Shown here in pieces: positions 39,552 through 41,444 of a stretch of 64,000 bases of DNA (position 1 is the first letter of the stretch; each line of letters starts with the position of its first letter). The notes beneath the pieces were generated by a model. That model was not told the origin of the DNA and searched no databases. It saw nothing but the letters and a program-made list of their open reading frames with translations. The stretch comes from Caulobacter segnis (GTDB taxonomy: Bacteria; Pseudomonadota; Alphaproteobacteria; Caulobacterales; Caulobacteraceae), in assembly GCF_019931575.1 (NCBI RefSeq), contig NZ_CP082923.1, positions 1,674,001 through 1,738,000 of the forward strand, given 5' to 3'. The translations under genes and the position numbers were made by a program.

Positions 39552-39727
39552 AAGGCGCCCGTCGATGTCGCATCCCGCGAACGGATCATCGGTCTTTCGC
39601 TCTGGTTTTGATGCGCCTGTCGCAGGTAAAGCGGCGATCCTGGAAGAAATTTGCGCGACCTGCGGCGGATCGCGCCGTCGGCGCAAATTGCTTGCTCGAT
39701 TCCGGGGCGCTGTGTAGAAAGTCGGTC
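39552..39727 (+). promoter_or_regulatory. Upstream region of the leuA leader
   Basis: 176 bases without a credible protein gene, between the VTT gene stop and the leader peptide. The promoter of leuA must lie here; an AT-richer stretch near 39685-39720 (TTGCTT ... GTGTAGAAAG) is a possible site but the spacing does not fit a consensus well. Confidence 0.35.
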
Positions 39728-39784
39728 ATGACTGTCGCGCGCGACCTGCTTTCGCTTCGGCTTATCAGCCCCTGGGCGCTCTAG
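39728..39784 (+). CDS. leuL: leuA leader peptide (18 residues)
   Basis: Short reading frame coding MTVARDLLSLRLISPWAL, followed by a TAG stop, 85 bases before leuA. Five of 18 codons are Leu (CTG CTT CTT CTT CTC); CTT is rare in this GC-rich genome, where CTG dominates, as expected for a leader that senses charged tRNA-Leu. AGAAAG precedes the ATG at a fair distance. Too short for usual gene finders, so support comes from codon content, position and the hairpins around it. Confidence 0.75.
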   Translation: MTVARDLLSLRLISPWAL

Positions 39785-39805
39785 GGGCCGCGCATCGTCG
39801 TGGCC
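39768..39805 (+). promoter_or_regulatory. Putative leuA attenuator hairpins
   Basis: Two stems share bases 39786-39788 and so exclude each other: GCCCCT / AGGGGC (39768-39773 with 39783-39788) and GGCCGCG / CGTGGCC (39786-39792 with 39799-39805, one G-T pair). The first overlaps the end of the leader peptide, where a translating ribosome would melt it. No T-run follows, so the switch may act on translation or through Rho rather than by a classic terminator. Confidence 0.5.
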
Positions 39806-39869
39806 GGGCGCACAGGGGACATTTGACCCGCAGCCCGCACGCCACACACCCCATTCGACGAGTACTTCC

Positions 39870-41444
39870 ATGACCTCCGTATCCGCTAGCGCTTCCGACA
39901 AGCGCGACAACGTCGTCATTTTCGACACCACCATGCGCGACGGCGAGCAATCGCCCGGCGCGTCGATGTCGCTGGAAGAGAAGCTGGAACTGGCCAAGAT
40001 CCTCGAGGAGATGGGGGTCGACATCATCGAGGCCGGCTTCCCGATCGCCTCGAACGGCGACTTCGAGGCCGTCCGCGAAGTGGCCAAGATCGTCAAGAAC
40101 TCGACCATCGCCGGCCTGTGCCGCGCCCACCAGGTCGACATCGACCGCTGCGCCGAGGCCCTGAAGCCGACGCAGCGCGGCCGGATCCACGTGGTCATCG
40201 CCACGTCCGACCTGCACATGAAGCACAAGCTGCAGATGGAGCCGGATGCCGTCATCGACGTGATCGCCCGCTCGGTGGCCCACGCCCGCAACCTGCGCGA
40301 CGACGTCGAGTGGTCGGCCGAGGACGCCACCCGCAGCGACCGCCAGTTCCTGCGCCGCGCGGTCGAGACCGCCATCAAGGCCGGGGCCACGACGATCAAC
40401 CTGCCCGACACGGTGGGCTACACCTATCCGTCGGAATACGCCGACCTGTTCAACTGGATGGTCAGCAACGTCGAGGGCGCCGACAAGGTGATCTTCTCGA
40501 CCCACTGCCACAACGACCTGGGCCTGGCCGTGGCCAACAGCCTGGCCGGGGTGCAGGGCGGCGCCCGCCAGGTGGAATGCGCCATCAACGGCCTGGGCGA
40601 GCGCGCCGGCAACGCCGCGCTGGAAGAGATCGTCATGGCCCTGAAGGTGCGCGGCGACCGCCTGCCGTTCCGCACGGGCATCGACACCACCCACATCACC
40701 CGCGCCAGCCGCTACGTCTCGGCCATCACCGGCTTCCCGGTGCAGTACAACAAGGCCATCGTCGGCAAGAACGCCTTCGCGCACGAGAGCGGCATCCACC
40801 AGGACGGCATGCTCAAGAACCGCGAGACCTACGAGATCATGACGCCGGAGTCGGTGGGCCAGGCCCCGTCGAGCCTGGTCATGGGCAAGCACTCGGGCAG
40901 CCACGCCTTCCGCGCTAAGCTGAAGGACCTGGGCTACGAGCTGGGCGAGAACGCGCTGAAGGAAGCCTTCGGCCGCTTCAAGGACCTGGCCGACCGCAAG
41001 AAGCATGTCTACGACGACGACATCATCGCCCTGGTCGACGACGCCCTGGCGCGCGGCTCGGAGAAGATCCGCGTCGCCCACCTGCGCGTCGTGGCCGGCA
41101 CCGAAGGCCAGTCGGCCGAGCTGACCCTGGACGTCGATGGCGTCTCCAGCACCGCCGAGGCCACCGGTGACGGTCCGGTCGACGCCGTGTTCAACGCCAT
41201 CCACAAGATCGTGCCGCACAGCGCCGCCCTGCGCCTCTTCCAGGTGCACGCGGTGACCGAGGGCACCGACGCCCAGGCCCAGGTCTCGGTGCGTCTGGAG
41301 GAGGACGGCCGCATCGCCACCGGGGCGGCCGCCGACACCGACACCCTGACGGCCTCGGCCAAGGCGTACGTCAACGCCCTCAACAACCTCTTCGCCCGCA
41401 AGGAGAAGAGCCGGCCCGAAGCGGCGATCGCCAGCGGCTTCTAG
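39870..41444 (+). CDS. leuA: 2-Isopropylmalate synthase LeuA
   Basis: First enzyme of leucine synthesis: condenses acetyl-CoA with 2-oxoisovalerate. It has 524 residues, with an N-terminal TIM barrel ([16 protein letters not shown] metal site, [31 protein letters not shown]), a linker and a C-terminal leucine-binding allosteric domain (about 390-510). The leader peptide upstream gives a second level of leucine control. No other leu gene adjoins it. Confidence 0.96.

Follow-up and report, generated by a model that had tools for sequence, protein, structure and literature searches.

The window analysed here, a stretch of 64,000 nucleotides from Caulobacter segnis, contains a leuA gene whose product scores over the NCBIfam cut-offs as 2-isopropylmalate synthase, and the closest named leuA loci are those of Caulobacter, with LeuA identities of up to 98% (among the best 80 of 593 loci). 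Upstream of leuA lies a short reading frame of 18 codons with five leucine codons (CTG, CTT, CTT, CTT, CTC), the stop of which is separated by 85 nt from the leuA ATG at 39870 (Table 1). CTT accounts for 3.2% of the 1615 leucine codons in 45 mechanically chosen open reading frames of the window, and the binomial probability of at least three CTT among the five leucine codons of the leader is 3e-4. An earlier reading of the letters alone, the sequence-only reading, had described the frame in these terms, with three of its five leucine codons being the rare CTT, and the sequence bears this out in all particulars.

Upstream regions of Caulobacteraceae contain, as judged by eye, a CTTGC-like box and a TA-rich box near the leader ATG; the corresponding boxes of the window end 7 nt before the ATG, and no match to an E. 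coli-type sigma-70 promoter was found at them. Because these promoter-like boxes adjoin the leader ATG so closely, transcription may start at or beside this codon if the boxes are used, and the leader mRNA may then be leaderless. Sinorhizobium trpL has been described as leaderless (PMC10117765). Just upstream of the leader, at 39653-39675, the minus strand contains a hairpin and a T-run that together resemble a terminator. On the plus strand no terminator-like site was found in 39560-39960, in agreement with the statement of the sequence-only reading that a T-run is missing.

Table 1. Positions of the leader, its RNA stems and leuA in the window
Feature	Position	Strand	Basis
Promoter-like TTGCTC-17-TAGAAA, directly 5' of the leader ATG	39692..39720	+	By eye, Caulobacteraceae upstream regions
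Leader peptide frame, 18 codons, MTVARDLLSLRLISPWAL and stop	39728..39784	+	Reading of open reading frames; frame kept in relatives
Entire conserved element, match of model R1, 62 bits, E 2.3e-11	39746..39824	+	Same genome's locus is among the 55 seed sequences of R1
Possible P0, joining UGCUUUCG (Leu codons) to 39856-39864 by 8 pairs with one bulge, -7.5 kcal/mol with flanks, weak	39747..39754	+	Not better than chance in the window's genome
CTTA, near-invariant last Leu codon plus A	39761..39764	+	Present in 96 of 100 (non-redundant set) and in 72 of 80 (further elements)
Alternative hairpin H1, exclusive with P1 and P2, window's clade only	39768..39788	+	Folding, masked fold
P1 5' arm, CCCCTGGGCGCTC	39769..39781	+	Alignment, RNAalifold, folding
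Inner hairpin P2 (39786-39792 with 39799-39805)	39786..39805	+	Folding
P2 loop and 3' strand, UCGUCG, complementary to 39856-39861	39795..39800	+	Suggestive
P1 3' arm, GGGCGCACAGGGG	39806..39818	+	Alignment, RNAalifold, folding
Candidate ribosome-binding site, CGACGAGTA, 6-14 nt 5' of the leuA ATG	39856..39864	+	Clade conservation
leuA, 2-isopropylmalate synthase	39870..41444	+	NCBIfam

The sequence-only reading had furthermore proposed two hairpins, here H1 and P2, that exclude each other and thereby act as a switch. Both do fold, at -14.3 and -11.4 kcal/mol respectively, they overlap at 39786-39788, and H1 covers the end of the leader frame. The second of them forms the inner part of a conserved structure, being enclosed by the stem P1, and the whole of 39769-39818 folds at -34.2 kcal/mol. 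P1, the main stem and the part that is conserved across Alphaproteobacteria, had been missed, and the first hairpin turned out to be specific to the clade: the core of H1 is confined to the window's own clade, with 19 occurrences among the 131 collected elements, and in an alignment of this clade 18 of the 19 distinct sequences have the whole of H1 and the remaining one has it shortened by one base. Of the candidate leuA ribosome-binding site, ACGAGTA is kept in all 19 distinct clade sequences and the preceding CG is lost in one.

Conservation of the element and its reading frame

For comparison, 110 leuA loci were assembled, 30 from relatives (36 of the 60 relatives searched for leuA share the window's genus) and 80 (the best of 593) from a collection of public genomes. 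In most of them leuA is preceded by the same pattern, consisting of leucine codons, CTTA, four bases, CCCCTGAGCG, an inner hairpin and CGCTCAGGGG. The element was found in 77 of the 110 loci with a strict pattern and in 89 with R1, a covariance model with nested stems only that was built from an alignment of 55 leaders; it was absent from the Pelagibacteraceae loci examined. RNAalifold recovered P1 from this alignment unaided. P1 covaries: among the 55 seed sequences 96.0% of the P1 cells are paired and six of the 11 pairs show double changes, with 31 double-change cells as compared to 6.4 in shuffles, and structures slid along the alignment drop to 30-60% paired. The first four pairs of P1 hardly vary, and the inner hairpin is variable in sequence and length. 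Outside the seed, pair 8 of P1 is kept in 59 of 67 elements versus 44.7 in shuffles, with GT, GC, AT and CG as pair types, in elements retrieved by R1, a model that by its nature favours pairing. A short hairpin of CUUA with UGAG, seen by eye, was rejected as it is not retained in every lineage. A programmed frameshift at CTTA was also considered and set aside.

Surveys of the class and of the phylum were conducted with stricter Infernal filters. Among 385 alphaproteobacterial genomes drawn across the class, 123 contain a total of 125 R1 matches, 123 of which precede a leuA. Specifically, 109 are followed on the same strand by a leuA at a distance of 13-221 nt (among the leuA matches listed), and the other 16 comprise eight before an ordinary leuA, six before a divergent leuA and two weak ones (26 bits) before no leuA. 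The six divergent genes have 24-28% identity to the leuA of the window, and the two that were checked against NCBIfam score above the cut-off of TIGR00970 (leuA_yeast); in these loci (L150-L155, two of six checked) the leader thus stands before a leuA of the yeast type. As the element precedes ordinary and divergent leuA genes, it follows function across two leuA families. In two of the eight loci with an ordinary leuA, L158 and L160, a small frame starting with M(K/H)(T/K)INL(A/S)EKLS sits between leader and leuA, and the target of the leader would there be the ribosome-binding site of the intervening small gene. Of 150 genomes with a leuA among the matches listed, 40 had no R1 match. In a phylum sample of 299 genomes, for which the share outside the class is not given, 54 match R1, all of them Alphaproteobacteria and none from outside. 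Within the window's own genome R1 has the one strong match given in Table 1 and its next best place reaches 19 bits, so that no strong further copy was found. No Rfam 15 family matches at the element in the window and 16 other loci, and a permissive Rfam scan of 39600-39900 yielded two matches, both far below their gathering scores.

Two sets of elements were used. The first was derived from the 131 collected elements (L093-L095, L100 and L103-L110 were left out when elements were collected with R1 from the 110 loci), which were reduced on the basis of shared 8-mers to 100 non-redundant ones, 94 of these with a leuA start that could be recognised 30 nt or more downstream. The second consists of 80 further elements from the survey, 69 of them non-redundant and 67 usable, which brings the combined number to 161. 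Starts of leuA were chosen by script via the best Shine-Dalgarno match; gene starts in the window are mechanical.

Selection acts on the leader as a reading frame. Within the nine codons up to the CTT, the first set has on average 4.84 leucines in frame versus 0.17 and 0.60 in the other two frames (100 non-redundant elements), and the second set has 3.90 versus 0.26 and 0.57 (69 non-redundant elements). A stop codon follows exactly 12 nt after the CTT, within the 5' arm of P1, in 85 of the 100 elements (TGA in 69, TAG in 11 and TAA in five) and in 61 of the 69. The remaining 15 of the 100, including the clade of the window, have the tryptophan codon TGG at the stop position and a stop 6-24 nt further on. 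In most of the class the peptide consequently ends inside P1, and a proline codon usually precedes the stop; in the window's clade (39769-39784) the frame ends 9 nt after the TGG that replaces the stop. The tetranucleotide CTTA is rarely replaced by CTAA or CTTC and is near-invariant although the codon that starts with its A varies. It bears a likeness to the CCUUA end of the anti-Shine-Dalgarno sequence. When the invariant codon is excluded, CTT still represents 38% of the leucine codons in the leaders versus 7.8% in the 5' part of leuA (161 elements). Two marks of leader-peptide attenuators of amino-acid operons are found, a short frame in which codons for the product of the pathway abound and a conserved RNA structure over the end of this frame. 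That the frame encodes a leucine leader peptide, as the sequence-only reading had it, is strongly supported by the conservation of frame, leucine codons, stop position and gene context. As regards recurrence in relatives, on which that reading had made its case depend, the leucine- and CTT-rich frame and the paired stem P1 do recur before leuA, but the first of its hairpins is found in the window's clade only.

Leucine codons and the leuA ribosome-binding site

Outside Caulobacteraceae, statistics over the class show complementarity between the run of leucine codons and the leuA ribosome-binding site of the same species. The duplex of the leucine run with the ribosome-binding site of the same species has a mean energy of -11.77 kcal/mol versus -9.7 kcal/mol when the sites are swapped between species (n=94; z -6 to -9 between runs). 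With swaps matched for GC content the difference is -2.0 (se 0.42, n=88, Wilcoxon P 4e-5), and relative to dinucleotide-shuffled ribosome-binding sites the mean z is -1.0 (se 0.13), with 22% of the elements at or below the 5% rank. The first set of 94 elements had suggested this pairing and is therefore not independent of the idea. The second set of 67 is independent and has no sequence in common with the R1 seed, though it was found with R1; held out in this way, it gives -11.90 kcal/mol for matched versus -9.51 (sd 0.33) for swapped pairs, a difference of 2.4 kcal/mol (z -7.3, n=67).

The excess peaks at the two segments in question. In the first set nothing of it is left once the leader window is shifted upstream by 50-90 nt or the window for the ribosome-binding site is shifted 24-48 nt into leuA, and a smaller excess persists at a leader offset of -30 (z -3.8); in the held-out set weaker excesses are seen at a leader offset of -50 (z -3.1) and with the ribosome-binding site window 12 nt into the gene (z -4.5). 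Among the 148 elements from outside Caulobacteraceae, for which the leucine run and the ribosome-binding site give a z of -10.1, a scan with windows of 14 nt peaks at the leucine codons just 5' of CTTA (z -11.8, with neighbours at -6.6 and -7.9), and the windows in P1 and P2 reach only +1.3 to -2.1. The contacts have their maximum at positions -10 to -1 of the leader and at positions -13 to -9 of the ribosome-binding site. Predicted folds of individual loci (L159, L141, L063, L129) link the leucine codons to the start region of leuA across P1, and in folds of full length the leucine run is paired with the ribosome-binding site in 56 of 94 elements, as compared to 30-37 of 94 with swapped sites. 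When a stalled ribosome was simulated by masking the leucine codons, the start region opened by more than 0.1 in 40 of the 94 and closed in five; with swapped ribosome-binding sites 16-22 opened. The rank of the species' own site has a median of 0.26 over all 161 elements and falls into the best tenth in 31% of them, so the signal is clear in the mean and not in every genome. This share, together with the swapped pairs that fold together in 30-37 of 94 cases, indicates that part of the pairing is generic.

The partner of the ribosome-binding site in Caulobacteraceae

Pairing of the leucine run is unsupported in Caulobacteraceae, where three of 13 scored elements have a rank of at most 0.08 and the other ten range from 0.34 to 0.94, the window being at 0.89. 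Of 43 ribosome-binding site stretches of other genes in the window, defined by mechanical gene starts, 38 pair better with the leuA leader than that of leuA itself, and a simulated stall in the window does not open the leuA site, for which the unpaired value is 0.58 in the free RNA, 0.44 with a stalled ribosome and 0.56 with a ribosome at the stop. The ribosome-binding site in this family tends to match the loop and 3' strand of P2 rather than the leucine codons, a modest and suggestive signal. Perfect runs of complementarity between these two segments are 8 long in L026 and L029, 7 in L022 and L030 and 6 in the window, where UCGUCG at 39795-39800 matches CGACGA at 39856-39861 with P 0.033 for the longest run and 0.06 for the energy, as judged against shuffled ribosome-binding sites. 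Against such shuffles, P is at or below 0.05 for the P2 strand in five of 14 Caulobacteraceae by run and in six by energy, these being related sequences; for the same 14 the leucine run reaches this level in two and three, and two other segments in zero and one each. In the swap test the P2 strand of this family reaches a z of only about -2. L023 has no match in P2 and has instead a match of six bases to leucine codons (CUACUC with GAGUAG).

In the family of the window the partner of the leuA ribosome-binding site would, on this weaker ground, be the 3' strand of P2 and not the leucine codons. If the P2 strand is indeed the partner, formation of P1 and P2 would decide whether the leuA site is free: P1/P2 would hide the 3' strand of P2 and thereby free leuA. 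For the class, two data sets support a translational mechanism; in Caulobacter such a mechanism is possible, and its switch could run in either direction.

Mechanism, alternatives and known attenuators

From the matched pairing of the leucine run with the ribosome-binding site and the folds under a simulated stall we infer translational attenuation, and we consider it rather likely that leuA is preceded by a leucine-responsive cis-regulatory leader that works in this way. Peptide and hairpin together would probably enable the cell to sense a shortage of leucine and to respond by opening leuA for translation rather than by stopping transcription. When leucine is plentiful, ribosomes would clear the leucine codons, which would be free to pair, over the bridge formed by the P1 hairpin, with the leuA ribosome-binding site and keep leuA closed. 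When charged Leu-tRNA is scarce, a ribosome would stall on the leucine codons and cover the anti-Shine-Dalgarno sequence they constitute, and leuA would be translated. In a more far-reaching version, for which we see the chances as evenly balanced, the element would be a sensor for the whole class, in which the leucine run doubles as leuA anti-Shine-Dalgarno sequence, its codons co-evolve with the ribosome-binding site species by species, two divergent leuA families are served, and in Caulobacteraceae the sequestering strand has moved to the inner hairpin with peptide and P1 kept. Co-evolution of leucine codons with the leuA ribosome-binding site would, within this version, be the reason for the rare CTT. 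In translational attenuation of the erm type a ribosome stalled in the leader frame frees a sequestered ribosome-binding site, the stalling being brought about by an antibiotic. The leuA leaders would be unlike erm leaders in that the ribosome would be stalled by hungry leucine codons, and these same codons would sequester the site.

Several other explanations have to be weighed against translational attenuation. Classic transcription attenuation by an intrinsic terminator is suggested by the peptide rich in the regulated amino acid and the mutually exclusive stems, as in known attenuators, and a review describes leader peptides with terminator hairpins before branched-chain genes in various Gram-negative species (PMC6123439). 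However, sites with a hairpin and a U-run between leucine codons and leuA number 7 in 161 elements versus 7.05 in shuffles, and an intrinsic terminator after P1 or anywhere before leuA was rejected for want of an excess. Nor does the 3' arm of P1 have a general alternative partner downstream, as the classic 3:4 terminator would require (0.546 versus 0.523 in shuffles; z -0.3 outside Caulobacteraceae). We consequently regard this explanation as highly improbable, in line with the suspicion of the sequence-only reading that the mechanism may differ from classic attenuation. The region downstream of P1 has a folding energy slightly below that of shuffles (mean z -0.35, se 0.12), and the 3' strand of P2 has a small pairing excess with the downstream 40 nt (z -3.1, 0.6 kcal/mol). 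Termination could alternatively depend on Rho: with a stalled ribosome P1 and P2 would form and hide a region for Rho loading, and with plentiful leucine a ribosome at the stop would block P1 and Rho would end transcription before leuA. A stop inside the 5' arm of P1, as present in 85 of 100 elements, would fit, since a ribosome terminating there should disrupt P1; U-rich stretches follow P1 in just 6 of 100, and the downstream region is somewhat rich in C (C 0.31 versus G 0.25, C exceeding G in 68 of 100). Yet C exceeds G equally often inside leuA (70 of 100), and the matching of leucine codons to the ribosome-binding site of the same species would be left unexplained. We regard Rho-dependent attenuation as possible and rather unlikely.

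A third possibility is an RNA that binds a protein or a metabolite and in which the reading frame is incidental. Such an RNA might account for the near-invariance of CTTA (96 of 100) and of the first four pairs of P1, which goes beyond what a bare stem needs, but it is hard to reconcile with a strong enrichment of leucine in a single frame, a fixed stop position and an inner hairpin that varies in sequence and length, and we would be surprised if it were correct. Compatible with translational attenuation, and a sub-case of translational control, is a switch specific to the clade between two states, P1/P2 on the one hand and H1 with a long hairpin from the 3' half of P2/P1 to the leuA ribosome-binding site on the other. 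The masked fold of the window yields H1 and a long hairpin from the P2 strand to this site, and the 3' strand of P2 is complementary to the site in several Caulobacteraceae (L026, L029, L022, L030 and the window). However, the part of the long hairpin formed by GUGGC with GCCAC is kept in only some members of the clade, as seen by eye, independent sequences are few, L023 and L035 (two of 14) have runs of only 3, and P1/P2 alone is very stable at -34.2 kcal/mol. Such a switch is accordingly put forward tentatively, as possible and rather doubtful.

In known systems, translational attenuation as proposed here has its closest counterpart in Actinobacteria, where for the LEU element before leuA a run of leucine codons was proposed to pair with the leuA Shine-Dalgarno sequence around a pseudoknot (Seliverstov et al., 2005; PMC1262725). 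Both have an upstream frame with leucine codons before leuA and a base stem formed by the leucine run and the leuA Shine-Dalgarno sequence (PMC1262725). This pairing is found in the class outside Caulobacteraceae and is not supported in the window and its family. The inner part differs: a pseudoknot or an alternative hairpin was considered for the LEU element, for which its authors favoured a binding protein (PMC1262725), whereas the alphaproteobacterial element has a hairpin, nested stems being what was modelled, with the stop in its 5' arm in 85 of 100. Moreover, the LEU element belongs to another phylum, and the alphaproteobacterial pairing is backed by the statistics of species swaps. The leader of E. 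coli leuABCD acts by ribosome-mediated transcription attenuation with a terminator hairpin (PMC6123439), and attenuation has been described for Caulobacter ilvBN in a paper whose main text does not contain the word leuA (PMC4117421). The leuA leaders resemble these two in a short frame with codons for the end product, in alternative RNA structures and, as proposed, in a stalled ribosome as the sensor of starvation (PMC6123439, PMC4117421); but the E. coli leuABCD and Caulobacter ilvBN leaders act through a terminator hairpin, and the alphaproteobacterial leuA leaders have none above chance. No treatment of a leuA leader in Alphaproteobacteria was recognised among the papers listed from the open-licence literature, as judged mostly by titles and the beginnings of abstracts.

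In a large part of Alphaproteobacteria, with Caulobacter and many Rhizobiales among others, leucine control appears to depend on an RNA element without a match in Rfam 15. If the proposed mechanism is true, the leaders would provide a natural series of matched pairs of codon run and ribosome-binding site for translational attenuation, a reason for the persistence of the rare CTT in leaders, and an attenuator that works without a terminator. The alphaproteobacterial element would at the same time be a testable counterpart to the unresolved LEU element of Actinobacteria.
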